From NCBI GenBank assembly GCA_027492795.1, contig JAPUEB010000006.1, positions 62,001 to 126,000 of the forward strand: 64,000 nucleotides of DNA. The letters run 5' to 3'. The translations under genes were made by a program, and so were the position numbers. The notes under the pieces were generated by a model. The model was not told the origin of the DNA. It worked only from the letters and a program-made list of their open reading frames with translations, and ran no database searches. Positions 1,731 through 26,121 of this stretch are shown here, one piece after another; positions within the stretch are counted from its first letter, which is position 1, and each line of letters begins with the position of its first letter. Source of the stretch: Chryseobacterium sp. (GTDB lineage Bacteria; Bacteroidota; Bacteroidia; Flavobacteriales; Weeksellaceae).

Positions 1731-2132
1731 ATGACTAAACCGCAAATAATTGAATTTAGCAAAATTGGATCACCATCTTTAGGATATATTTCTGTAGCTG
1801 AAGCAGAAAAAAACATTCCTTTTACAATAAAAAGGGTTTACTGGACATACTTTACGCCAAACCATGTTGAACGCGGAAACCACGCACATAAGAAACTACA
1901 ACAAGTAATTTTTGCTGTCGCAGGAATAATCGATTTCAAACTGGTAGATCAAAATGAAAATGTTTATGAATTTACTTTAGATTCTCCGGAAAAAGCACTT
2001 TTTATTCCTCAAGGTTATTGGAGAGAGATTAGATTTTCACACAGCGCTGTATTATTATGTCTAGCTTCAGAAGTTTATGATGAGAGTGATTATATTAGAG
2101 ATTATCAAGAGTTTTTAGAAAATAAATTATGA
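1731..2132 (+). CDS. dTDP-4-dehydro-6-deoxyglucose 3,4-ketoisomerase (FdtA/QdtA-like cupin)
   Basis: A 133-residue cupin of the WxcM C-terminal/FdtA family, which moves the keto group of dTDP-4-keto-6-deoxyglucose from C4 to C3. The family hallmark is visible as [12 protein letters not shown], with the two histidines in the cupin barrel, followed by [10 protein letters not shown] chose ATG at 1731, one base after the previous stop; an earlier in-frame start at 1662 would overlap the upstream gene heavily. The gene overlaps the acyltransferase by 4 bases and is two genes before the aminotransferase, giving a complete 3-amino-sugar cassette. Whether the product has the galacto (Fuc3N) or gluco (Qui3N) configuration cannot be told from this sequence alone. 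Confidence 0.88.
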
Positions 2133-2614
2133 TATTTATACACCCACTTGCTGATGTACATAGTTCAAATATTGGCGAAAACACAAATGTTTGGCAATAC
2201 TGCGTGGTGCTTCAAAATGCTGTAATAGGTAAAAATTGTAATATAAACTGTCATGTTCTCATAGAAAATGATGTGAAAATCGGAGATAATGTAACCATAA
2301 AACCGGGTGTACAAATTTGGGACGGCGTTACATTAGAAGACAACGTGTTCATTGGTCCTAATGTTACTTTTACAAATGATTTAATTCCTCGCTCCAAACA
2401 ATATCCTGAATCATTTACTAAAACCTTAGTGAAAAAGGGAGCTTCAATCGGTGCAAATACCACAATAGTTGCAGGAAATACCATTGGCGAAAATTCTTTA
2501 ATTGGAGCAGGAAGTGTAATTACAAAAGATGTTCCGGCAAATACCGTATGGTACGGAAATCCTGCTAAGCAAAAAGGAACAATTGATGAAAAAGGAAAAA
2601 TAACTTATGATTAA
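2129..2614 (+). CDS. Left-handed beta-helix N-acyltransferase (FdtC/QdtC-like)
   Basis: A 161-residue hexapeptide-repeat acyltransferase. Repeats of the form [IV]GxNxxI run through most of the chain ([35 protein letters not shown]), ending in the usual GNPAK cap. In the dTDP-Fuc3NAc and dTDP-Qui3NAc pathways this enzyme class acetylates the 3-amino group after transamination, and the flanking ketoisomerase and aminotransferase make that the likely role. It overlaps the upstream gene by 4 bases (ATGA) and the downstream gene by 8, so the three are probably translationally coupled. Confidence 0.87.
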
Positions 2615-3707
2615 ATTCCTCGACCTTCAAAAAATAAATCTCGCCCACCAACAGGAAATTGAAGGGCGACTAATCAATACTTTTCGAAGCGGATGGTATC
2701 TTTTAGGCAATGAGGTGAAAACTTTTGAAGAAAACCTTTCGGATTTTATTGGTGCAAAACACGCAATTGGTGTTGCTAATGGATTAGATGCTTTACGTTT
2801 AATATTGCGTGCATACATTGAAATGGGCGTGATGCAAAAAGGAGACGAAATTATTGTTCCCGCAAATACCTACATTGCATCCATATTGGCGATTTCAGAT
2901 AACGGACTCGTTCCTGTTTTGGTAGAACCTGATTTGGAGACGTACAATATTGACATTTCTAAAATCGAAGAAAAAATCACTTCCCGCACAAAAGGAATTA
3001 TGATTGTGCATTTATATGGCAGAGTTGTTTTTTCAGAAGAATTAAAAAATATTGCCAATAAATATTCTTTGAAAATTATTGAAGATAATGCACAAGCAAT
3101 CGGTGCGGTATGTAACGGATTCAAAACCGGAAATTTGGGTGATGCATCGGGTTTTAGTTTTTATCCTGGGAAAAACTTAGGAGCTTTAGGTGATGCAGGT
3201 GTTGTGACGACTAATGAGGATGAATTGGCAAAAACCATTCGTGCATTAGCGAATTATGGTTCAAACGAAAAGTATGTAAATATTTTTCAGGGGCTTAATT
3301 CTCGGCTGGATGAAGTTCAGGCAGCAATTTTGGATGTGAAGTTAAAATACATCAATGAAGAAAATGAAAAAAGGCGTCAAATTGCTAAGCGATATATTTC
3401 TGAAATTAAAAATCCAAAAATTATTCTTCCCGAAAACCCTAAGGATGAAGCTGAACATGTTTGGCATTTATTTGTAATTAGAACTGCCGAAAGAGATCAT
3501 CTTCAAAAATATTATGCAGAAAACGAAATTCAAACTTTAATTCATTATCCGATTCCGCCGCATAAGCAGAAAGCATATCAAAATTTGCATCATCTTTCTT
3601 TCCCAATTACAGAAAAGATTCATCAGGAAGTATTAAGTTTACCCATAAGTCCGGTTATGGAAGATCATGAGGTTACAAAAGTGATTACAACTATAAACAA
3701 TTACTAA
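2607..3707 (+). CDS. DegT/DnrJ/EryC1-family sugar aminotransferase (FdtB/QdtB-like)
   Basis: A 366-residue PLP-dependent aminotransferase of the DegT/DnrJ/EryC1/StrS family. The Schiff-base lysine is K189 in [14 protein letters not shown], and D160 in IIEDNAQA is placed to contact the pyridine nitrogen. Length and motif spacing are normal for the family. With the preceding ketoisomerase and N-acyltransferase it should make a dTDP-3-amino-3,6-dideoxyhexose from the 3-keto sugar using glutamate. The RmlA/RmlB enzymes needed to supply dTDP-4-keto-6-deoxyglucose are not in the window. The stop codon overlaps the next start by one base (TAATG). Confidence 0.92.
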
Positions 3708-10915: not shown

Positions 10916-11917
10916 ATGCAAAAAACACAATGGTTAGATACCGCAAGAAGTATTGCAACGCTTGCTGTAATATTGGTACACATTCTTGGAGTCTATATAA
11001 ATAGCTATGGATCAATAGATGAGACATCATGGGCTATAACTACTCTATTTGGTAGTGGAATACGATTTTGTGTGCCTTTTTTCCTTATGCTTACTGGTGC
11101 ATTGTTGCTAAATAAAGATTATACAATTAAATCCTTCCTTAAAAAAAGATTTTCAAGAATTTTACTGCCATTTTTATTTTGGAGCATTATTTACGTGTTT
11201 ATTCAGAACAATTTTCAAATTGATAATAGCATAAAAGATCTTAGCAGCATCTTTTTGAAACCCACGGCTTTTCATTTATGGTATATTTATATGCTGATTG
11301 GAATTTACTTAATAATCCCAGTAGTAAATCAGGTTACAAAAGGCGTCAGCAGAAATATTATCCTGTATTACCTATTAATTTGGTTCGCAGTTCTTTTTTT
11401 CAATTTACCCTTGCTCTCCAAATTGCCAAAGTCCTTCGATCTCACCTATTTTTCGGGTTATCTTGGTTATGTACTTTTAGGGTTCTACCTATACAGGTAC
11501 AGCGGAAATGTTTTTCGCTACAAAAAAATACTATTTACAATCTTTTTAGCTTCTGTCTTATTTACTTTTGGCTTCACTTATTTATATTCCACAAAATATT
11601 TCAAATATGCAGATCAATTTTTCAACTATCTAACACCGAATATAGTTTTAATGTCATCATCATTATTTCTATTGCTAATGAATTCAAGTTCTCCACACGG
11701 AAAATTTACCGTTTTAGTTAATCTGATAAGTAAATACAGCTATGGCATCTACCTTTCTCATATTGCTACAATTATGCTGTTGCAGTTCTTTCTTCCGCAT
11801 CTCTTTCAGTTAAACCTAATGTCAATCATTTTTGTATTTTTACTTTGTGTCATAGTATCATTCGTTATTACCTATATTCTAAATAAATTACCTTTCGGAA
11901 AATATTTTGCAGGATAG
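10916..11917 (+). CDS. Membrane acyltransferase, acyltransferase-3 family
   Basis: A 333-residue polytopic membrane protein with about ten hydrophobic segments. The N-terminus WLDTARSIATLAVILVHILG carries the Arg and the His after the first helix that mark the acyltransferase-3 (OafA/WecH-like) family, and RFCVPFFLMLTGALLL is the conserved second-helix block. Such enzymes move acetyl or other acyl groups across the membrane onto glycans. Together with the second member at 19726 it suggests O-acylation of the exported polymer. Confidence 0.85.
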   Translation: MQKTQWLDTARSIATLAVILVHILGVYINSYGSIDETSWAITTLFGSGIRFCVPFFLMLTGALLLNKDYTIKSFLKKRFSRILLPFLFWSIIYVFIQNNFQIDNSIKDLSSIFLKPTAFHLWYIYMLIGIYLIIPVVNQVTKGVSRNIILYYLLIWFAVLFFNLPLLSKLPKSFDLTYFSGYLGYVLLGFYLYRYSGNVFRYKKILFTIFLASVLFTFGFTYLYSTKYFKYADQFFNYLTPNIVLMSSSLFLLLMNSSSPHGKFTVLVNLISKYSYGIYLSHIATIMLLQFFLPHLFQLNLMSIIFVFLLCVIVSFVITYILNKLPFGKYFAG

Positions 11918-12876: not shown

Positions 12877-14679
12877 ATGTGCGGAATCGCCGGAATAATC
12901 GCAAATAACGCAGAAAAGTATAAAGAAAATCTGCAAAAAATGACCGACAGCATCGCCTATCGCGGTCCAGATTCTGCTGCTCATGAGTTTTTTGAAAACG
13001 CCGCTCTCGGTCACCGCCGACTCGCAATTTTAGACTTATCTGAAACAGGAAAACAACCTATGTTCTCCGACACCAAGAACGAATGCGTCGTTCTGAACGG
13101 CGAAATTTATGGCTATCTAGATTTAAAGAAAAAATACAGCGATTATCCTTACAGAGGAACTTCCGACACCGAACTTATTTTGGCGATGTACCAACAAAAG
13201 GGCGAAAACCTCATCAACGAACTCCCCGGAATGTTCGCTTTTGCGATTTGGGACGAAAAAAAACAGGAACTGTTCTGCGCAAGAGACCGTTTTGGCGAAA
13301 AACCATTTTATTACGCATTTGGAAAAAATGGCGAATTTATTTTTGCTTCAGAAATCAAAGCAATCATTGCTTCAGGATTGATAAGGCCAGAAATCGACAA
13401 AGCTCAAATCGCTTACTATTTAAAGAACGGATACATTCATCCGCATCACAGCATCTACAAAAATATTTTCAACCTAAAACCCGCCCATACTTTAACCCTG
13501 AAAAATGGAAAAGTAGAAACAAAACCTTATTGGAAAATCCCGACAGAAACATCAAAAATTTCCCTTGAAGAAGGTATTGAACAGTTTAAATTTCTTCTGG
13601 ATAATGCGGTTAGAAAACAGCTTATTGCCGATGTTCCAGTTGGTTCTTTTCTTTCAGGCGGTTTGGATTCCAGCACTATTGTTGCCGCAGCGTCGAAATA
13701 TGAAAAAAATCTGATGACAATTTGCTACGGCTACGAAACAGGCGACCTGAACGAAATGCCATACGCAAAAGCCATCGCAGAAAAATATGAAACCAACCAT
13801 TTTGAAATCCTGGATAAAGAACAAAGCATTTTCGATACGTTGAACGAGGTTTATTCTTACATGGACGAGCCTTTGATGGACTCTTCGCTTTTACCTATGC
13901 ATCTTATTTTCAAGGAAGCTTCCAAAAAACTGAAAGTGGTGCTTTCAGGCGATGTTGGCGATGAACTTTTCGGGGGTTACACATTTTACAAATACAATGT
14001 GGATTTGAGCCAGAAAGGATTTTATCCAGATTATCTCTCTAAAATTTTTCTGATGATGAACAAATTCAGAAATATAGGTTCTGAAAGAATTCACCGTGCA
14101 GAATACAGCGACTCCATTGATTTTCATCAAAATAAAGTGCGGAATTATTTTACGGAAAACGAAATAAAAAGCTTAGGCGTTACCGAAAATGTTCCCAATC
14201 AGAGTTTTAGTTTTGAATTTAAAGATGGAGATTTTAATGATTTAATGCGAATCGATTTAGAAAAATATGTTCCCGGAAATATGCTTTTGAAAGGTGACAG
14301 AACGGCGATGTTCAACTCCGTGGAAGCAAGAATTCCTTTTCTGGATGTTGATTTTGCAGAGTTCTGTATTAAATTACCATGGCAATTTAAAATGAATAAA
14401 TCTGATGATAAAATCATTCTACGAAAAGCCTACGCAAAAGCTTGGACAGAAGAAATTGCCAATCGCGGGAAAAATGGTTTTGCCGCATCGGTTACGGAGT
14501 GGTTTAAAGAAGATGCGCTGCAAGACTTAAATAAAGAATTATTAGAAAATAAAAATAGTTATATTTTCAACTATTTGAATTATAATGAAGTTCAAAAAAA
14601 GCTCAACAATAATCTTCAGCATTGGAGTTTGCTTATTTTAGCATTGTGGTTCCGAAATCAGCATCAAAATTTTGCGTAA
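12877..14679 (+). CDS. asnB: Asparagine synthetase-like glutamine amidotransferase
   Basis: A 600-residue class II glutamine amidotransferase fused to an ATP-pyrophosphatase domain, the architecture of glutamine-hydrolysing asparagine synthetase. The N-terminal nucleophile Cys follows the initiator Met (MCGIAGI), glutamine-binding VLNGEIYGY and GTSDTELIL are present, and the PP-loop is SGGLDSS at residues 261-267. Because it lies between two glycosyltransferase genes it may not make free asparagine. Relatives in O-antigen loci (for example WbpS of Pseudomonas) are thought to amidate uronic acids. The sequence does not distinguish these roles. Length is normal for the family. Confidence 0.85.
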   Translation: MCGIAGIIANNAEKYKENLQKMTDSIAYRGPDSAAHEFFENAALGHRRLAILDLSETGKQPMFSDTKNECVVLNGEIYGYLDLKKKYSDYPYRGTSDTELILAMYQQKGENLINELPGMFAFAIWDEKKQELFCARDRFGEKPFYYAFGKNGEFIFASEIKAIIASGLIRPEIDKAQIAYYLKNGYIHPHHSIYKNIFNLKPAHTLTLKNGKVETKPYWKIPTETSKISLEEGIEQFKFLLDNAVRKQLIADVPVGSFLSGGLDSSTIVAAASKYEKNLMTICYGYETGDLNEMPYAKAIAEKYETNHFEILDKEQSIFDTLNEVYSYMDEPLMDSSLLPMHLIFKEASKKLKVVLSGDVGDELFGGYTFYKYNVDLSQKGFYPDYLSKIFLMMNKFRNIGSERIHRAEYSDSIDFHQNKVRNYFTENEIKSLGVTENVPNQSFSFEFKDGDFNDLMRIDLEKYVPGNMLLKGDRTAMFNSVEARIPFLDVDFAEFCIKLPWQFKMNKSDDKIILRKAYAKAWTEEIANRGKNGFAASVTEWFKEDALQDLNKELLENKNSYIFNYLNYNEVQKKLNNNLQHWSLLILALWFRNQHQNFA

Positions 14680-17726: not shown

Positions 17727-18497
17727 TTATTTCACAAAAACCCCGATAAACTTTCCCTCGAAATCTACAATTGTAGGCTCTAAGCCGTTTTTTTCACAAA
17801 AATCTTGAAAAGCCGAATTATCATTAATGTCATCGCTGATGAAGACTCCTCCTTTTCTTAAATTGCTGTACAGTTTTGGATACGCCCACGACATTCCTTC
17901 ATAAGCCTTATCAGAATCATAATGCACCACATCAACCTCATTACAAATTGAGAAAATTTTAGGTAGCGACTCGCGGTCTGCATGCCTAAAAAGCTTCCAA
18001 TTCTTTTTCAATTCTTCCGGAACAACAAAACCCACATATTTGTCGCCATCTTGGCTTAAATAGGGCATATCCGAGCTGTAAAGCGTCCCATTTCTTTTTT
18101 CCAAAGATTTCAAAGCAGCAAAAGACGACCAACCGTATGCAACCCCTGTTTCGATGACATTTTTAGCTTTTGTAAACTCGCATGCCTCATAAATAAGCTC
18201 CAATGCTCCTGCTCCACCCATTTTCACGGGGCAATTCTGTTGTTTTCTTAAAGCCTCAAGGTATTCTTTATCAAATTTTTCAGCAAATTTTTCCATCTTT
18301 TTGCCGAATAATTTTTCAATAGCTTCCGTTTGGCTTACAGCATTTTCAGAAGCCCAAAGGTTCGTCTTTTCTTTACCCTTGAAGGCACTTTTTCTATTGA
18401 AAACATTTTTGATGATTTTTCTGCCTAGTTCAGGATAAAGATCTGGTCTTTTAAGATAACCTGCTAAAGTTTTGGTAACCCGTAGTAATTCGCCCAC
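17727..18497 (-). CDS. Class I SAM-dependent methyltransferase
   Basis: A 256-residue methyltransferase-like protein on the minus strand, the first break in the + strand run. KNVIETGVAYGWSSFAAL is the SAM-binding motif, YSSDMPYL contains the acidic residue after strand 2, and DVVHYDSDKAYEGM the next acidic strand. The start is GTG (CAC at 18495-18497); no earlier Met gives a better one. It may methylate a terminal sugar; chain-terminating methylation is common in ABC-exported O-antigens, but this is only contextual. Confidence 0.8.
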   Translation of the reverse strand: MGELLRVTKTLAGYLKRPDLYPELGRKIIKNVFNRKSAFKGKEKTNLWASENAVSQTEAIEKLFGKKMEKFAEKFDKEYLEALRKQQNCPVKMGGAGALELIYEACEFTKAKNVIETGVAYGWSSFAALKSLEKRNGTLYSSDMPYLSQDGDKYVGFVVPEELKKNWKLFRHADRESLPKIFSICNEVDVVHYDSDKAYEGMSWAYPKLYSNLRKGGVFISDDINDNSAFQDFCEKNGLEPTIVDFEGKFIGVFVK

Positions 18498-19725: not shown

Positions 19726-20811
19726 ATGAAAAAAAAATCTACAGGTTTTATTCCCGCTCTTACCGGATATCGTACCATTGCAGCATGGATGATATTCGTT
19801 TATCATTTCATGCCCTACGACAATCCTAAATATCCACAATGGATTCGTGATTTTGTTCTTGAGTTTCATATGGGCGTGGATATGTTTTTTGTTTTGAGTG
19901 GATTTCTGATTACTTACCGTTATTTCAATCAAACCCCAATTCCGATGCGAGGTTACTTGGTGAACCGTTTCGCTAGGATTTACCCCATGTATTTCTTAAT
20001 TTCTGCTGCGTATTTTTTGATTTGGTACCTGCAGAATCAATCATGGGATTCCGAAAAAACCATTGAAGCTATTCTCAGCTTTACCATGACGAAAGCATTT
20101 TTCACGAAATATCAGTTTACAGCAGTTGCACAAGGATGGACTTTGACGCTGGAAGAGATGTTTTATTTCACAGCCCCATTTTATTTTATTTTAATCAGAA
20201 AAAACATTAAGTGGTTTTTCATCATTCCATTTGTAATTTTTGCATTCGGCACCTTATTGCAACATCTTTTTAAAGGGCCAGAAAATACATGGGAATTTAT
20301 GACGAGAAACATTTCCGTTTACATTTTTGAATTTTTCGCCGGAATTGGTTTGGCGTATATTGTGATGAAAAAAAATATAAAGTTTAAGTTTAATTGGGTG
20401 ACTTGGTTTGGGATCATCAATATTTTGCTTTTTCTTTTCTTCGTGAAATATTATTACCTTACCAACAACACCATAGGTCCATTGTTAATTATTTGTCTTT
20501 CTATCTTCGGAATTTCTCCTTTATTGTGGGGATTGATCCACGAAAAAACAATCGTCCAAAAAATTCTTAGCACAAAACTCTTCGTTTTGCTTGGTAAAAG
20601 CTCCTATATTTTCTATCTTGTTCACAAAGGATATCTCCCCGTTTTCATCAACGATTATATAAGTGACAACAAATTGGTGAATTTTATTTTATTAAATGTA
20701 ATTTCCATAGTAATGTTCCTTTATTTGGAAGAGCCAATTAATAATTTCATCAGAAGAAAATGGAACCCTAAAAAACCAACAGTTGCAAATATTATCAATG
20801 AAAAAGCCTAA
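19726..20811 (+). CDS. Membrane acyltransferase, acyltransferase-3 (OafA-like) family
   Basis: A 361-residue polytopic membrane protein. GFIPALTGYRTIAAWMIFVYH gives the conserved Arg and His of helix 1, and HMGVDMFFVLSGFLITYRY is the textbook second block of OafA-type O-acyltransferases. About ten hydrophobic segments follow, without the SGNH domain that some members carry. It likely acetylates a sugar of the exported glycan. The next gene starts 14 bases before its stop. Confidence 0.9.
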   Translation: MKKKSTGFIPALTGYRTIAAWMIFVYHFMPYDNPKYPQWIRDFVLEFHMGVDMFFVLSGFLITYRYFNQTPIPMRGYLVNRFARIYPMYFLISAAYFLIWYLQNQSWDSEKTIEAILSFTMTKAFFTKYQFTAVAQGWTLTLEEMFYFTAPFYFILIRKNIKWFFIIPFVIFAFGTLLQHLFKGPENTWEFMTRNISVYIFEFFAGIGLAYIVMKKNIKFKFNWVTWFGIINILLFLFFVKYYYLTNNTIGPLLIICLSIFGISPLLWGLIHEKTIVQKILSTKLFVLLGKSSYIFYLVHKGYLPVFINDYISDNKLVNFILLNVISIVMFLYLEEPINNFIRRKWNPKKPTVANIINEKA

Positions 20812-21943
20812 AACCAAACTCTTATTCAGACTCCGCTCCATGGAAACAGGTGGCGTACAGAAGGTTTTATGCGACATCATGAAAAATCTTCCGGAAGAAA
20901 AATTTGAAATCTTTCTGCTACTGAACATGAAACAGGGAGAAATGCTTCCTTTAATCCCAAAAAATGTGAAAGTTTTCACTTTAAGCGAGGGAAAAGAAAG
21001 TTTTTCAAAAAATAGTCTGATTCAAAAAGCCCAGCTTGCCGTAAGAAGGATCAAACTTGAGCTCTATAACAAATTTCCAAATCTTATTAGAAATACAATA
21101 AAAATAATTCCCGATGTTGAAGTAGCATTCACTTCCACGGAATATGAAGCCCTTTTGAAAAGCCCGTTCAAAAATTCCAAAAAAATTGGCTGGTTTCATG
21201 CGGATATTCGCGATGTAGGACTTAATGAAGACGAAAAACTTTTCGTTATCAGTCAGCTCCAGAAAATGGATACGGCAGTTTTTGTTTCAAAACAAACCAA
21301 AAATATTATCAAAGAAGTTTACAATATTGATTTTCCGAACGGAGAAGTGGTTTACAATCCTTTTGAACACGAAATCATTAAGGAAAAATCTAATAATTTT
21401 GAGGTAGATTTCAAAACCGATGAACCTGTATTTATTTCTTTGGGAAGACTGATCCCGAGAAAAGGAAACCACATCTTGGTTGAAGCGCATAAAATATTAA
21501 TTGACAAAGGTTTAAAGCATAAAGTCTATGTTTTCGGTGATGGACAGGAGAAAGAAAATCTGGAAATTTTGATTGAGAAATACAACCTTAAAGATTCATT
21601 TTTTATTAAAAATCCCGTCATCAATCCGTATCCTTATTTAAAAAAGGCGGATTTTTATGTTTTACCCTCAAAATCAGAGGCTTATCCGTTGGTAATTGGC
21701 GAAGCTTTGATACTTGAAAAACCAATAGTCGCCACCAATGCAGGTGGTGTAAAAGAAATGATGGATGATGGAATCAACGGTTTAATCGTAGATTACGATG
21801 CTGAAAAACTGGCTTTAGGAATGGAAAAATTACTCACCGATAAAGATTTTGTAGATAAAGTAAGGGAAAACAACAAAAATGCTTTTCAACGATTCGATAA
21901 CGAAAAAATTTACCGGCACATCACACAAATTTTAGAAAAATAA
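20798..21943 (+). CDS. Glycosyltransferase family 4 (paralogue set B)
   Basis: A 381-residue GT-B enzyme of family 4. The N-terminal domain begins LLFRLRSMETGGVQKVL (glycine-rich acceptor loop); the C-terminal domain has FISLGRLIPRKGNH and FYVLPSKSEAYPLVIGEALILEKPIVATNAGGV. I prefer ATG at 20798 over TTG at 20783, since the alignment with the paralogue at 24838 begins there. Compared with that paralogue it lacks an interdomain insertion. It overlaps the ligase gene by one base (TAATG). Confidence 0.9.
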   Translation: MKKPKTKLLFRLRSMETGGVQKVLCDIMKNLPEEKFEIFLLLNMKQGEMLPLIPKNVKVFTLSEGKESFSKNSLIQKAQLAVRRIKLELYNKFPNLIRNTIKIIPDVEVAFTSTEYEALLKSPFKNSKKIGWFHADIRDVGLNEDEKLFVISQLQKMDTAVFVSKQTKNIIKEVYNIDFPNGEVVYNPFEHEIIKEKSNNFEVDFKTDEPVFISLGRLIPRKGNHILVEAHKILIDKGLKHKVYVFGDGQEKENLEILIEKYNLKDSFFIKNPVINPYPYLKKADFYVLPSKSEAYPLVIGEALILEKPIVATNAGGVKEMMDDGINGLIVDYDAEKLALGMEKLLTDKDFVDKVRENNKNAFQRFDNEKIYRHITQILEK

Positions 21944-23385
21944 TGAACCCATTTATAGAACACCTTTACCAATCTTTTCAAAAAAACAGCAATGAAATTT
22001 GTCTGAAAATTGAGGAGAAAAAATATACCTATTCTGAAGTTTTTACCTTTGCTCAAAACATCCGTCATCAATTACAAAATATTGACTACCAAAACATTGG
22101 AATTTATTTAACGGATGATGTTTATATGTACGCTTCCATTTTGGCAATTTGGTTGGAAGGGAAAACCTACGTTCCCATTCACCCCGAATTTCCTCTAAAT
22201 AAAAATTTGAGCGTCATTAATCAGGCGGAAATAAAGTTTCTTTTAAGCTCTGTTGAGATTCAGGAAAATTTTGAAGTCCAATATCTCGATTCCACAAAAA
22301 GTTTTGAAATTGAAGATTTTGCTCCAAAAGATTTCCCTATTTCTACAAACGCATACATACTCTTCACATCGGGAAGCACCGGAAATCCGAAAGGCGTTCC
22401 CATCACTTTTTCTAATCTGTACCACTTCTCGAAATCTTTTGAAAAAACTTTTGGGAAATTATCAACTTCCGACCATGTTTTGCAAATGTTTGAACTCACC
22501 TTCGATTTATCGGTGATGAGTTACCTCATTCCTTGGTTGAATGGTTCCACAGTGGTTGCGCTTCATAAAAAGGAAACCAAATTTTTGCAGATTTTAGACT
22601 TGTTGGAAGCCGACGAAATTACGGTTGTATTGATGGTTCCAAGCATTTTGAACCTCATCATTCCTTATCTTGATTCCGAAATCAAAAACAGCAGTTTAAG
22701 ATTAAATTTATTCTGCGGCGAAGCTTTACTCACCAAACAGATCCAAAATTGGAAAGGCTTTATCCCAAACGCTGAAATCTACAATGTTTACGGCCCAACT
22801 GAAAACACTATTTTTTGTACGCACTATAAAGTTGGCGAAAACATCAAGGAAAAAAACGGAATTATCAGCATCGGAAAATCAATGACAGACAGCGAAATGA
22901 GCTTCCTTAATAACGATGAAAACGAAGGCGAACTTTTACTTTCCGGAAAATTTTTAACCAAAAATTATTGGAAAAACCCCGAAAAAACTAAAGAAACCTT
23001 TATTGAAAAAAATGGCGAAACCTTCTATAAAACCGGAGATTGGTGCATCCGTGACACCGATGGAGATTTTTTCTACACCAACCGAATCGATTTTCAGGCA
23101 AAAATAAACGGACACCGAATTGAACTCGCTGAAATTGAACACTTTGCCAATCAAGTTTTGGAAAATTCAGTAAGTGTTGCATTGATTCACAAAGATAAGA
23201 ATGACAACGATGAGCTGGTTCTATTTGTGAATGATTTAGAGGTTGATGAAAACGAAATTTTTGCCAATTTGAAAGAAAATCTTCCCGATTACGCAGTTCC
23301 GTCAAGAATCATTAAAGTGGAGAATTATCCTACAAACACTTCGGGAAAAACAGATAGAAACGAACTGAAAAAAACATTGTCATGA
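21943..23385 (+). CDS. AMP-dependent ligase, DltA-like amino-acid adenylation enzyme
   Basis: A 480-residue stand-alone adenylation enzyme. Core motifs are LFTSGSTGNPKG (140-151), FDLSV (187-191), YGPTEN (283-288), YKTGDW and C-terminal SGKTDRNEL with the catalytic Lys469. In adenylating enzymes the Asp of the FDxS motif (D188 here) binds the substrate alpha-amino group, so an amino acid is the likely substrate, and FDLSVM is close to D-alanine:carrier ligase DltA. Overlap with a GNAT gene (ATGA) and a nearby carrier protein gene suggest activation, carrier loading and transfer to an amino sugar. There is no C or TE domain. Confidence 0.85.
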   Translation: MNPFIEHLYQSFQKNSNEICLKIEEKKYTYSEVFTFAQNIRHQLQNIDYQNIGIYLTDDVYMYASILAIWLEGKTYVPIHPEFPLNKNLSVINQAEIKFLLSSVEIQENFEVQYLDSTKSFEIEDFAPKDFPISTNAYILFTSGSTGNPKGVPITFSNLYHFSKSFEKTFGKLSTSDHVLQMFELTFDLSVMSYLIPWLNGSTVVALHKKETKFLQILDLLEADEITVVLMVPSILNLIIPYLDSEIKNSSLRLNLFCGEALLTKQIQNWKGFIPNAEIYNVYGPTENTIFCTHYKVGENIKEKNGIISIGKSMTDSEMSFLNNDENEGELLLSGKFLTKNYWKNPEKTKETFIEKNGETFYKTGDWCIRDTDGDFFYTNRIDFQAKINGHRIELAEIEHFANQVLENSVSVALIHKDKNDNDELVLFVNDLEVDENEIFANLKENLPDYAVPSRIIKVENYPTNTSGKTDRNELKKTLS

Positions 23386-24002
23386 TCATCAGAAACGCAA
23401 CGAAAGAAGACATCCCGTTTATTGTAAACTCCATTATTGAGATAGAAAAAACTTCAGATTCAAATACCTATAACAACCTTTTTGACTGCGATACCGAAAC
23501 CACCAAAAAATATCTCACCCAGTTTTTAGAGGATGATGAAAATTTGGATACCGAACTTTCTTTAAATACATATCGCGTTGCAGAAATTGATGATAAAGCT
23601 GCAGGTTGCTGTTCATTGGTTTTCACAAATCATCATTATTACCAAAACAAAGGAGAGCTTTTCCCTGTTTGGCTTCAAAGAAATCATTTGGACTATTTTT
23701 TGGAAAATGCAAAGAATCTACCCGATATAAAAAATGCTTCCGAAGAAAAATATTTTGTGGAATATATCTTTGTAGATGAACAATTCCGCGGAAAAGGAAT
23801 GGCAAAAAAGATGATTGATGATCAAATGACTAAAATTCCTGCGAAAAACCTTTACATCAATGTTTTAGAAAACAACATCTCTGCAATTGAATATTATGAA
23901 AAATTAGGTTTTACAAAATTCAAATCGTTAGAAATTGACAATCAAGAAAATAAAATTTATCCTTGCCTGCGAAAATTGATTTTGTGCAAAGAAATTAATT
24001 GA
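23382..24002 (+). CDS. GNAT-family N-acyltransferase
   Basis: A 206-residue GNAT protein. The pantetheine-binding loop is QFRGKGMAKKM (R136 to A141) after the strand VEYIFVD, followed by LYINVLENNISAIEYYEKLGF, the usual C-terminal GNAT block. It overlaps the ligase by four bases and converges on the carrier protein gene with an 8-base overlap. By position it is the best candidate to pass the activated acyl or aminoacyl group from the carrier to an acceptor, but it could also simply use acetyl-CoA. Confidence 0.82.
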   Translation: MIIRNATKEDIPFIVNSIIEIEKTSDSNTYNNLFDCDTETTKKYLTQFLEDDENLDTELSLNTYRVAEIDDKAAGCCSLVFTNHHYYQNKGELFPVWLQRNHLDYFLENAKNLPDIKNASEEKYFVEYIFVDEQFRGKGMAKKMIDDQMTKIPAKNLYINVLENNISAIEYYEKLGFTKFKSLEIDNQENKIYPCLRKLILCKEIN

Positions 24003-24225
24003 ACTTTTCCGTACCTATCGCCTCAACCAGTTCATTGACGGTTTTTATGTTTCTAAAACTTCTCGGATTTATCTTCACGCCGAATTGGTCTTCAACCAGC
24101 TGCAGGATGAGAACCGCAGAAAGCGATCCGTAATTTTCAAGCTCTTTAAAATTCGTTTCAGGAGTTACGTTGCCCTCTTCTTTCAATTCATCTTTCAACA
24201 AGCTGCAAAACTGCTCTATATTCAT
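23995..24225 (-). CDS. Acyl/peptidyl carrier protein with altered DSL motif
   Basis: A 76-residue carrier protein. Helix II reads YGSLSAVLILQLVEDQFGVKI, followed by FRNIKTVNELVEAI, matching the ACP pattern in length and spacing. The phosphopantetheine serine is S34. The Asp that normally precedes it (DSL) is Gly here, which is unusual and may affect recognition by the phosphopantetheinyl transferase. It lies on the minus strand with its own TAAATTTG box and probably partners the adjacent DltA-like ligase. Confidence 0.8.
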   Translation of the reverse strand: MNIEQFCSLLKDELKEEGNVTPETNFKELENYGSLSAVLILQLVEDQFGVKINPRSFRNIKTVNELVEAIGTEKFN

Positions 24226-24246
24226 TGTGTTTCATATTTAAGGCAG

Positions 24247-24254
24247 CAAATTTA
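24247..24254 (-). promoter_or_regulatory. -7 box TAAATTTG for the carrier protein gene
   Basis: The + strand reads CAAATTTA. It lies 21 bases before the carrier protein ATG (24225) and is divergent from the box at 24268, so the intergenic region holds two back-to-back promoters. Confidence 0.5.
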
Positions 24255-24267
24255 GAAAAATTAATTT

Positions 24268-24275
24268 TACCTTTG
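24268..24275 (+). promoter_or_regulatory. -7 box TACCTTTG for the acyltransferase at 24284
   Basis: A TAnnTTTG match eight bases before ATG at 24284, implying a 5' leader of only a few bases. Confidence 0.5.
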
Positions 24276-24283
24276 CTACAATC

Positions 24284-24838
24284 ATGATTAATAAAATTAT
24301 TACCAAAATTTTTACCATTTTAGACGATTTGCGACAATCTGCGTATGTGAAAATCTGCGTTGAAAAAGGCTTGAAATTGGGCAAAAGCGTTTCCATCAGA
24401 AACAAAACATCTTTCGGCTCCGAACCCTTTTTAGTGGAAATTGGCGATGACACGAGAATCGGCGAAGGCGTTCAATTCATCACTCATTCTGGTTTTACAG
24501 TAAACTTAAGAAAAATTGAAGGCTACGAAACGGTAAGGAATTTTGGGCATATCAAAGTGGGAAAAAACTGCGCGATTGGAAACAACTCTATCATTTTGCA
24601 AAATGTGGAAATTGGCGACAATTGCGTATTGGGCGCCAATTCTGTACTTTCCGATTCTATGCCGAGTAACACGGTTTACCTCGGAAATCCTGCAAAATAC
24701 ATCTGCGAAATCGAAGATTATGGCGATGTTTTGAAAAAAAACACAATAGATTATCCTATAGAATTGGAAAAAGACCGCTACAAGCTTCATGAATGGCTAA
24801 AAAATAATCTGCCCAAAAAATTCAAAGCCGCGGAATAA
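24284..24838 (+). CDS. Left-handed beta-helix acyltransferase (CatB/MaA-like)
   Basis: A 184-residue hexapeptide-repeat acetyltransferase. Repeats include IGDDTRIGEGV, IKVGKNCAIGNNSII, IGDNCVLGANSVL, with an active-site-like FITHSGFTV segment and the GNPAK cap (VYLGNPAKYIC). This is the typical trimeric sugar O- or N-acetyltransferase of glycan clusters. It is separated from the upstream genes by divergent promoters and overlaps the next gene by one base. Confidence 0.86.
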   Translation: MINKIITKIFTILDDLRQSAYVKICVEKGLKLGKSVSIRNKTSFGSEPFLVEIGDDTRIGEGVQFITHSGFTVNLRKIEGYETVRNFGHIKVGKNCAIGNNSIILQNVEIGDNCVLGANSVLSDSMPSNTVYLGNPAKYICEIEDYGDVLKKNTIDYPIELEKDRYKLHEWLKNNLPKKFKAAE

Positions 24839-26121
24839 TGCAAAAAAAGAAAATCCTCATCAGAATTGGTTCCCTGCGTCACGGTGGGGCAGAAAAAGTT
24901 TTGGTGACTTTTCTAAAAAATCTGCCAGAAAATAAATATGAAATCGATTTATTGCTGAATCTTTACAGCGGAAAATATTTATCCGAAGTTCCTAAATGGA
25001 TTAATATCCTTTATTTGAACAAGGGCGAAATGATTACTACAAATCGACCTCAAGACATTCCCCAAAAAGCGTATCGTGTTGTTTATCAAAAGATTCTGAA
25101 AAAATTTCCGAAAATTCTTTATTCCAACATTTTAAAAAACAAAAAATACGATGTCGAGTTCGCTGCGATTCACGGTTTTCGGGATGAAATATTGAATTCA
25201 CCTTTGAAATCTTCCAAAAAAATCGTCTGGATTCACAACGATTTGCGAAAAACCCATTTTCACAACTATACCGACGATGAAATCCGCAAGTTTTTTGGTT
25301 TCGATAAAATTATGGTGATTTCCGAACAAATTCAGAAAGATTTTGAAAATCTGGCGGAAAATGATGATGAAAAAAATAGAATTGTGCGAATTTATAATCC
25401 TTTGGATACGGAGGAAATTCTTTTAAAGTCCGAAGTCCGAAGTCCGAAGAAGCGGGAAGATGGAAGATGGAAGATGGAAGATGGAAGTTTTGAGTCTGAA
25501 GTCCGAAGTCCGAAGTCCGAAGATAATCCTATACAAGAATCCTCGTTCCTCGGAACGACAACTTCTGAAAGCGGAATGCCAAAAGCCGAAAGCAACTTTC
25601 CAACTTTTGTAAGCGTAGGAACCGTATTTCCGCAAAAAGGTTTTGATAGGTTGCTGAAAGTTCATAAAAAATTGTTGGATGAAGGTTTTAAACATCGAGT
25701 TTTAATTGTTGGAGACGGCTACGATTTTGAGAATATTAAGAATTTAAAAACTGAACTTGGAGTTGATGAAACTGCGACTATGATTGGTTTTACCGATAAT
25801 CCTTATCCTTTTTTTAAAAATGCTGATTTTTATGTTTTGAGTTCCCGTTACGAAGGTTTCCCGACGGTTTTGTTTGAGGCGATGACATTAAATAAAAACA
25901 TCATTGCCACAGATGTTTCAGGCGTTCGCGAAATGTTGGAAGATGGAAAACTCGGTTTAATTATAGAAAACTCTGAAGAAGGAATTTACGAAGGAATGAA
26001 AAAAGCACTTCAAAATCCTGAAATTTTTGAAAAATACCAACAGGAATTGCAGCATTACGAAATGCCTTTTAATCTTGAAAATTCCGTGAATACCATCATA
26101 AAAATAATTGATGAATTATAA
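24838..26121 (+). CDS. Glycosyltransferase family 4 (paralogue set B) with repeat-derived linker
   Basis: A 427-residue GT-B enzyme. ILIRIGSLRHGGAEKVL opens the acceptor domain and FVSVGTVFPQKGFDRLL plus FYVLSSRYEGFPTVLFEAM make up the donor domain. Its paralogue at 20798 is 381 residues. The extra length lies between the domains, roughly residues 197-254, where the DNA is made of tandem repeats (AAGTCCG and GGAAGAT units) like those normally found between genes. The insertion stays in frame and is charged, so it probably forms a flexible linker. Whether the enzyme is active is unknown. Confidence 0.87.
   Translation: MQKKKILIRIGSLRHGGAEKVLVTFLKNLPENKYEIDLLLNLYSGKYLSEVPKWINILYLNKGEMITTNRPQDIPQKAYRVVYQKILKKFPKILYSNILKNKKYDVEFAAIHGFRDEILNSPLKSSKKIVWIHNDLRKTHFHNYTDDEIRKFFGFDKIMVISEQIQKDFENLAENDDEKNRIVRIYNPLDTEEILLKSEVRSPKKREDGRWKMEDGSFESEVRSPKSEDNPIQESSFLGTTTSESGMPKAESNFPTFVSVGTVFPQKGFDRLLKVHKKLLDEGFKHRVLIVGDGYDFENIKNLKTELGVDETATMIGFTDNPYPFFKNADFYVLSSRYEGFPTVLFEAMTLNKNIIATDVSGVREMLEDGKLGLIIENSEEGIYEGMKKALQNPEIFEKYQQELQHYEMPFNLENSVNTIIKIIDEL
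25426..25600 (+). repeat. Composite repeat inserted in a coding region
   Basis: Within the glycosyltransferase gene: about three AAGTCCG units, then about four GGAAGAT units (near 25455-25486), a second block of three AAGTCCG units (about 25500-25521), an inverted pair CGTTCC/GGAACG at 25544-25557, and AAAGCCGAAAGC at 25581-25592. The last unit is the reverse complement of the GCTTTCGG repeat seen between nadB and nadC. Boundaries are approximate. Confidence 0.75.

Follow-up and report, generated by a model that had tools for sequence, protein, structure and literature searches.

Four adjacent genes at positions 21943–24838 of a 64,000-nucleotide stretch of Chryseobacterium sp. DNA (assembly GCA_027492795.1, contig JAPUEB010000006.1, positions 62,001 to 126,000; hereafter the window) may encode an exchangeable aminoacyl-donor module of a surface-polysaccharide locus, acting like the ligase/carrier/GNAT sets of altemicidin biosynthesis. 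We put the probability of this reading at about 0.47. The genes encode a stand-alone adenylating ligase of the amino-acid type, a GNAT-fold acyltransferase, a carrier protein and a hexapeptide acyltransferase. The case is built on the anatomy of these genes, on their motifs, on their co-conservation and on the exchange of the contents of the slot in which they lie.

We propose the following route. The ligase would activate a small amino acid, Gly or Ala in the D or L form, as its aminoacyl-AMP and load the aminoacyl group onto the phosphopantetheine carried by Ser34 of the carrier protein. The GNAT would then move the group from the carrier thioester onto a sugar amine or hydroxyl, the modified sugar lying in the part of the glycan that is built by constant glycosyltransferases. 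The hexapeptide enzyme may add a further acyl group, probably acetyl, to the same sugar unit or to the amino acid.

Four genes form one unit

The ligase gene (21943–23385, plus strand, 480 residues, with the A-domain (adenylation-domain) fold) and the GNAT gene (23382–24002, plus strand, 206 residues) are both evident as open reading frames (ORFs), and they overlap by four bases, ATGA, at 23382–23385. The GNAT gene converges on the carrier gene (23995–24225, minus strand, 76 residues), with which it has 8 bases in common. Pfam matches to all three proteins exceed the gathering scores: AMP-binding at E 6e-50, Acetyltransf_1 at 3e-12 and PP-binding at 4e-10. The fourth gene (24284–24838, plus strand) encodes a left-handed beta-helix acyltransferase recognised by Pfam Hexapep; a gene tree and the boundaries in a sister pair of genomes, both described below, place it in the exchanged block. 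The unit is bordered by two GT4 glycosyltransferase genes, on the left at 20783–21943 and on the right at 24838–26121 (both plus strand), that are also present in most cassette-free loci. The interval between these two genes is what we call the slot.

A first-pass annotation of this DNA had pointed out an FDLSV motif with its Asp in the ligase, the ATGA overlap and the convergence of the GNAT and carrier genes, and all of these are there: Asp188 has its codon at 22504–22506, and Asp188-Leu189 of the FDLS motif span 22504–22509 on the plus strand. The same annotation had spoken of a three-gene set. The trio is real, but the unit also takes in the hexapeptide acyltransferase gene.

The ligase resembles enzymes for small amino acids

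Judged by its sequence, the ligase belongs among the amino-acid A domains, though it lies under both curated cut-offs. By E-value its best match among 97 NCBIfam families is the amino acid adenylation domain TIGR01733 (266.9 bits, E 3e-79, against a curated score of 317.4). DltA follows at E 1e-77; its two models give 267 bits for NF003417 (cut-off 476) and 261.7 bits for TIGR01734 (cut-off 559.85), so that neither cut-off is reached. The best solved relatives of the full-length protein are A domains of linear gramicidin synthase, then other nonribosomal peptide synthetase (NRPS) A domains and DltA. A search with the pocket half of the ligase (51 residues) ranked by E-value the second A domain of LgrA, whose module 2 we take to use Gly, then 6akd (IdnL7), 4oxi (AlmE) and 7r27 (DltA). 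A fragment search around FDLSV gave a single match, by chance.

The pocket residues, placed by alignment and not from a ligase structure, are Asp188, Leu189, Met192, Leu230, Leu256, Cys258, Val282, Ile290, Phe291 and Lys469. They are invariant in all 12 aligned close loci, window included, and in a further locus, G984. In what we take to be the GrsA numbering they read DLMLLCVIFK, with Asp188 and Leu189 presumably equivalent to GrsA D235 and A236. Cys258 (22714–22716, plus strand) falls on DltA Cys269 in the match to 3dhv_A, where query residues 3–48 and chain residues 263–308 are of equal length and were taken as ungapped. The D-Ala pocket residues of DltA (Asp197, Leu198 and Cys269) are thus matched, Asp188 and Leu189 by motif and Cys258 by aligned coordinates. 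The Gly pocket residues of AlmE (Asp247, Leu248 and Cys316) are matched by motif and match position, 4oxi being the third protein in the pocket-half search. Leu198 and Cys269 of DltA, like Leu248 and Cys316 of AlmE, are the residues beside the substrate methyl group or alpha carbon, and the substrates given for AlmE, IdnL7 and DltA are the size of Gly or Ala (PMC11253843, excerpt). Because the pocket half resembles LgrA, IdnL7, AlmE and DltA, and because Leu189 and Cys258 correspond, we predict that the substrate is Gly or Ala (D or L).

The carrier protein scores 40.3 bits against PF00550, above the cut-off of 20.8. Its predicted phosphopantetheine attachment site, Ser34 (codon 24124–24126, minus strand), is recognised from the sequence and the PP-binding match and is invariant in 13 of 13 close loci. 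The window genome has one phosphopantetheinyl transferase match (PF01648).

The cassette is conserved as a unit in close relatives

In a search of 149 relatives the ligase was found at 69% identity in one genome, G035, the remaining matches being of NRPS type at 30–33%. Larger samples placed it in 10 of 173 genomes of the genus group, g20 (E <= 1e-70), and in 13 of 320 genomes of the family (E <= 1e-120, window genome counted). A scan of a collection of named genomes, made with two poor seed peptides and therefore no census, returned three loci: ligase matches in Halpernia humi and in Chryseobacterium sp. ISL-6, and a 24% clostridial match (L018).

The window and 12 relatives, each of the latter examined over about 40 kb, make up the close loci. 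All 13 (12 aligned, together with G984) have the same order and orientation: ligase plus, GNAT plus, carrier minus, hexapeptide acyltransferase plus. The trio is therefore not a chance arrangement. With the nearest upstream ATG taken as the start, the overlap of ligase and GNAT genes measures 4 bases in nine of 12 loci and 1 base in three; GNAT and carrier genes overlap by 4 or 8 bases in 11 of the 12 and lie 164 bases apart in G536.

The flanks are common to all 13 loci as well. Upstream are an asparagine-synthase-like gene, GT2 genes, a minus-strand gene (17727–18497 in the window), a further GT2 gene and the left GT4 gene; downstream are the right GT4 gene, a hexapeptide gene and a carbonic anhydrase gene. 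The left GT4 protein is 41–43% identical to the window copy in 11 relatives and 74% identical in G984. The far-upstream region, with its sugar-nucleotide genes, is variable across cassette loci.

The slot exchanges its contents

We examined the slot in 42 ligase-free genomes, namely G307, G473 and 40 picked ones. It holds a KAS III/carrier cassette in 10, a hexapeptide gene alone in 25 and something else in seven (other genes in four; in three, the stretch matched nothing but the flank gene). In the 25 hexapeptide-only slots the left GT4 match and the hexapeptide match are no more than 223 bases apart. No ligase or GNAT match was found in the 42 stretches (tblastn, E 1e-4, at least 30% coverage). 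G307 and G473 came from a search with the right GT4 gene that served only to find them; its count of 2 in 78 is unreliable, as G501, G527 and G539 carry the gene yet were missed, probably due to an insertion in the window copy that splits the matches.

The alternative cassette of the 10 loci, cassette B, consists of a minus-strand carrier gene and a neighbouring KAS III-like gene, joined in seven of the 10 by a FabG-like reductase gene, before the hexapeptide gene. The KAS III of L115 exceeds the NF006829 cut-off and Pfam agrees for L115 and L122; the other eight loci were identified from their ORF sequences only. Cassette B occurs in L115, L116, L121, L122, L124, L130, L131, L136, L137 and L146; its KAS III, carrier and reductase genes all lie on the minus strand. 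The right-border GT4 allele that accompanies it is distinct, and three carrier-free loci have that allele too.

Trees built by a quick method from 12 cassette loci, without G984, bear on the history of the slot. The aminoacyl state needs five changes on the tree of the 17727–18497 gene and six on that of the right GT4 gene, at least two and at least three of which are forced by strong branches; the cassette has therefore probably moved between lineages. In the hexapeptide tree the 12 cassette alleles form one group (SH-like approximate likelihood ratio test, SH-aLRT, 93), and a long cassette-free row from G473 stands beside them with weak support. The hexapeptide alleles of cassette B fall half among carrier-free ones (5 of 10) and half in a group of their own.

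One of the two sister pairs compared marks the edges of the exchange. Between G501, which has the cassette, and G478, DNA similarity ends with the left GT4 end and resumes just before the right GT4 gene (83% and 93% identity). Where G501 has four genes in about 2.96 kb, G478 has a hexapeptide gene alone, in 0.59 kb.

Related ligases occur in distant Bacteroidota

In a sample of the order, seven of 395 genomes passed the threshold (window counted), four of them with NRPS-sized frames; in a sample of the phylum, five of 395 did so, again with the window counted. Together the two samples yield six further stand-alone ligases in five genomes (L019, L020, L184, L185 and L186). A small carrier-like ORF lies in the ligase's gene run in all five. 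In four of them (all but L185) this ORF was scanned with Pfam, which supports the carriers of L019 and L186, places that of L020 at the cut-off and gives no support for that of L184. GNATs are present in three of the five loci, L184, L185 and L186 (one from each was scanned with Pfam), and L186 has the order ligase-carrier-GNAT.

The six GNATs of L184 and L185 resemble the window GNAT (66 to 36 bits, E 4e-17 to 2e-6 in a nine-sequence database); that of L186 is weakly similar to it (E 0.006). The 4-base overlap of ligase and GNAT genes recurs in L184 and in one pair of L185. One ligase of L185 has the identical pocket code DLMLLCVIFK, and those of L019 and L020 read DATKIGHVCK, which we take to resemble an Asp code. 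The first-pass annotation had made its proposal depend on the genes being found together elsewhere. Indeed they are, in 13 of 13 close loci, and in the distant set the ligase is accompanied by a carrier in five of five loci and by a GNAT in three of five.

The surroundings of the distant sets differ. L184:1518–7848 is a single run of one ligase, four GNATs, an FkbH-like protein and the carrier-like ORF. In L185:174–9360 two ligase-GNAT pairs share one run with a single carrier, LuxE, LuxC, a FabG-like gene and a third AMP-binding protein; the run looks like a small-molecule pathway with reductive release. With FkbH in one and LuxE and LuxC in the other, the triad is not tied to glycans everywhere. 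In L019:390–1487 and L020:389–1483, directly upstream of the ligase-carrier pair, lies a gene for a protein of 365–383 residues that Pfam does not match significantly; it may be the transferase in that variant. A predicted structure of the 365-residue L019 protein (two sequences) reached a predicted local distance difference test score (pLDDT) of 48.5 and was not used.

A broader interpretation is possible, if rather doubtful: that the slot between two conserved glycosyltransferase genes exchanges whole acyl-donor pathways, and that the ligase-GNAT-carrier triad is a general Bacteroidota module for amide or ester formation without condensation domains. The pathways in the slot would then be of three types, an aminoacyl type (ligase, GNAT, carrier and hexapeptide enzyme), a ketide type (KAS III and carrier, usually with a ketoreductase) and a hexapeptide acyltransferase alone. 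The pocket codes that differ by lineage (DLMLLCVIFK and DATKIGHVCK) and the tandem use of the triad in L185 would belong to such a general module.

Comparison with known systems

Biochemical precedent for ligase-carrier-GNAT chemistry comes, by analogy, from the Sbz sets of the altemicidin/SB-203208 pathway. There, stand-alone adenylating ligases (SbzB or SbzL) load free carriers (SbzG or SbzK), and the GNAT-family transferases SbzC and SbzI use the acyl group bound to the carrier to build an ester and an amide, one GNAT esterifying with an amino acid and the other amidating (PMC6331615, excerpt). SbzB with a carrier and SbzC, and SbzL with a carrier and SbzI, were active in vitro, and the same excerpt reports no product from SbzB and SbzC when coenzyme A (CoA) took the place of the carrier (PMC6331615). 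Ligase, carrier and GNAT genes likewise stand together in 13 of 13 close and 3 of 5 distant loci. The Sbz sets differ in belonging to a Streptomyces antibiotic pathway with a small-molecule acceptor, whereas the set described here lies in a surface-glycan locus; no close sequence relation between the two has been established.

AlmE and AlmF of Vibrio cholerae (with AlmG) are similar in another respect: they modify a Gram-negative surface with a ligase and a carrier, and AlmE has the Leu/Cys pocket and uses Gly (PMC11253843 and PMC12930378, excerpts). AlmG acts on a lipid A acyl chain, whereas here a GNAT and a hexapeptide enzyme stand beside the ligase within a glycosyltransferase cluster. No AlmG-type transferase was found among the 25 of 31 locus genes scanned, and no genome-wide search was made.

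The first-pass annotation had compared the set with DltA and DltC, which serve the D-alanylation of teichoic acids. That likeness extends to the ligase and carrier and to the pocket, with its Leu198 and Cys269 positions, and DltA has an FDLS motif, as has the window ligase. The ligase scores only 262–267 bits where the DltA cut-offs are 476–560, and no DltB- or DltD-type gene, whose lack had been remarked on, is present among the 25 of 31 locus genes scanned with Pfam (no genome-wide search was made). AlmEF(G), SbzB/SbzG/SbzC and SbzL/SbzG/SbzI are the closer analogues.

Two further systems share single features. In lincosamide synthetase (the LmbC A domain, the carrier LmbN, and LmbD) a carrier-bound amino acid activated by an A domain is joined to an amino sugar; LmbD is described as having no recognisable similarity to known proteins, and the excerpt names no GNAT (PMC4351081). 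The R-group genes wfpC–wfpG of Flavobacterium psychrophilum are strain-variable genes for a carrier-bound acyl donor in one type of O-polysaccharide (O-PS) locus and resemble cassette B. They differ in making a dihydroxyhexanoyl group with a KAS, an acyl carrier protein and a reductase, and no amino-acid ligase or GNAT is named in the excerpt (PMC6519341). Each part of the module therefore has known relatives: AlmEF and DltAC for ligase and carrier, Sbz for the GNAT, and the F. psychrophilum R-group genes for strain-variable carrier-bound donors. The ligase-carrier-GNAT set as an exchangeable glycan module was not found in the open-licence literature searched by titles and beginnings of abstracts, which is no proof of absence.

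Weighing the module against its alternatives

Several observations weigh against an aminoacyl-donor module. The carrier is truly odd at its attachment site, and for loading this is the weakest point: in all 13 close loci the residue before Ser34 is Gly, not the usual Asp (GSLS replacing DSL, hence Gly-Ser-Leu), whereas the cassette B carriers have Asp there and the distant carriers Asp or Glu. The exchange boundary is not always at a gene end, since similarity between G536 and G307 ends inside the left GT4 gene (72%) and resumes at the right GT4 gene (86%). Two of the five distant loci, L019 and L020, hold the Pfam-unmatched protein in place of a recognisable GNAT, and the triads of L184 and L185 have no obvious glycan context. 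The analysis names no acceptor, and the literature searched held no chemistry of these glycans. The transferase could also be either of two Acyl_transf_3 membrane acyltransferases encoded in the window at 10916–11917 and 19726–20811, the second two genes upstream of the ligase; these genes were not found as a constant part of the cassette loci.

The GNAT itself tells against the reading in one further way. Its AlphaFold model (12 sequences, pLDDT 85.6) has the GNAT fold, with 4m85_C as the best PDB neighbour (Z 18.7, root mean square deviation 2.6 over 179 residues), and the structures closest to it are those of ordinary acetyltransferases. SbzI ranks 16th by itself (8zt3, template modelling (TM) score 0.49) and 42nd in complex with its carrier (8zt4, TM 0.48), no better than unrelated GNATs. 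Foldseek/VIA comparisons establish the fold alone; as SbzI is listed amid hundreds of ordinary GNATs, the fold cannot tell a CoA donor from a carrier donor. In the CoA/pantetheine loop, R136 and G139 do not vary. This is an ordinary CoA-type loop, and the GNAT may therefore use acetyl-CoA.

That loop also fits the strongest of the alternatives, which we nevertheless consider unlikely. The ligase would again load Gly or Ala onto the carrier, the GNAT would acetylate the alpha-amino group with acetyl-CoA, and the cassette-specific hexapeptide enzyme would transfer the N-acetyl-aminoacyl group from the carrier to the sugar. Amino sugars of bacterial O-polysaccharides are known to bear N-acetyl-alanyl, N-acetylglycyl and related groups (PMC3210612, excerpt), and a PglD-like enzyme of F. 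psychrophilum is predicted to draw its acyl group from an O-PS-specific carrier (PMC6519341, excerpt). The window hexapeptide protein scores 53.4 bits against the NeuD/PglD/VioB model TIGR03570, below the cut-off of 160.8. Both the grouping of the 12 cassette-type hexapeptide alleles (SH-aLRT 93) and the exchange of the hexapeptide gene along with the trio in G501 versus G478 are as this alternative would have it, but the gene lies physically within the exchanged block, so that linkage need not mean partnership. Moreover, half of the cassette B loci share hexapeptide groups with carrier-less loci, the other five being separate. We favour the GNAT over the hexapeptide enzyme as the bond-maker, because a GNAT accompanies the ligase in L184 and L185, where no hexapeptide gene was recognised in the ORF lists (not every ORF was family-scanned).

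The acceptor proposed in the first-pass annotation was the dTDP-3-amino sugar made by the genes at 1731–3707 (plus strand, outside the unit), which encode FdtA, a hexapeptide acyltransferase and an FdtB-type aminotransferase (Pfam FdtA, Hexapep and DegT). N-acylation of this sugar by the module is improbable. N-acetyl-alanyl 3-amino sugars are known from other bacteria (PMC3210612, excerpt) and a close FdtB homologue is encoded in 10 of the 13 cassette loci, but none is present in those of G035, G536 and G984. G035 has no FdtB homologue above 39% identity genome-wide, G536 has no match at E 1e-5 in 39.8 kb, and the absence from G984 covers 40 kb around the cassette. In the g20 sample 119 of 173 genomes have FdtB (E <= 1e-140), 110 of them without the ligase; nine of the 10 genomes with the ligase have both (Fisher p 0.12), and gene correlation was accordingly rejected as a guide to the acceptor, FdtB not being linked to the cassette. 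In addition, FdtA and FdtB flank a hexapeptide acyltransferase gene of their own at 2129–2614. The dTDP-3-amino sugar is thus unlikely to be the specific target. A sugar added by the constant glycosyltransferases, joined via an amide or an ester, is the likelier target, because the cassette lies where the locus is constant and its slot is otherwise filled by genes for different acyl groups. What stands of the earlier proposal is its activate-load-transfer logic, in which an amino-acid-type ligase, a carrier and a GNAT would act as a unit in a glycan locus, as their constancy in the 13 close loci suggests.

We think it equally improbable that the ligase activates a non-amino carboxylic acid, such as a short fatty or hydroxy acid, the trio being a variant acyl-loading system. 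The other cassette of the same slot is indeed a KAS III/carrier set, and the cassette B carriers are 36–44% identical to the window carrier, closer than the two other, weak carrier matches in the window genome (26–30%). An Asp at the position of Asp188 is not strictly required for amino acids (PMC11253843, excerpt), so its presence is no strict test of amino-acid use. Set against these points, amino-acid A domains are the best matches of both the whole protein and its pocket half, and Asp188 and Lys469 are invariant.

Least probable of all is that the trio makes a small molecule or modifies a non-glycan target and is merely located here: the distant triads do lie beside FkbH, LuxE and LuxC genes in stretches in which no glycosyltransferases were recognised, but all 13 close loci place the trio between glycosyltransferases common to most cassette-free loci, the slot also holds other acyl genes, and L186, on a reading of its ORFs, again adjoins sugar genes.

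Significance

If the module acts as we propose, Flavobacteriia would possess a compact gene set for an aminoacyl-type glycan substituent, and the logic of ligase, carrier and GNAT, known for an antibiotic pathway, would apply to glycans of the cell surface as well. Closely related natural strains with different slot contents could be compared in pairs to learn what the cassette does to the glycan, and the contents of the slot would help in predicting surface variation from sequence. Should the more doubtful, general interpretation of the triad also be true, the triad would be one origin of the aminoacyl groups that chemical analyses have long revealed on bacterial glycans.

Neighbouring genes

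Three of the flanking genes have features of their own. The minus-strand gene at 17727–18497 matches Methyltransf_24 (E 2e-10) and, as a locus marker present in 156 of 173 g20 genomes (E <= 1e-70), provides a handy anchor. The asparagine-synthase-like amidotransferase gene found in all 13 cassette loci lies at 12877–14679 in the window; such an enzyme in loci of this kind may amidate a uronic acid. Relative to the 397-residue copy of L017, the right GT4 gene (24838–26121) has an in-frame low-complexity insertion of 30 + 13 residues at 25435–25524 and 25549–25587, which carries the repeat RSPK..ED..WKMEDGSF. Similar repeat insertions are known in Bacteroidota.

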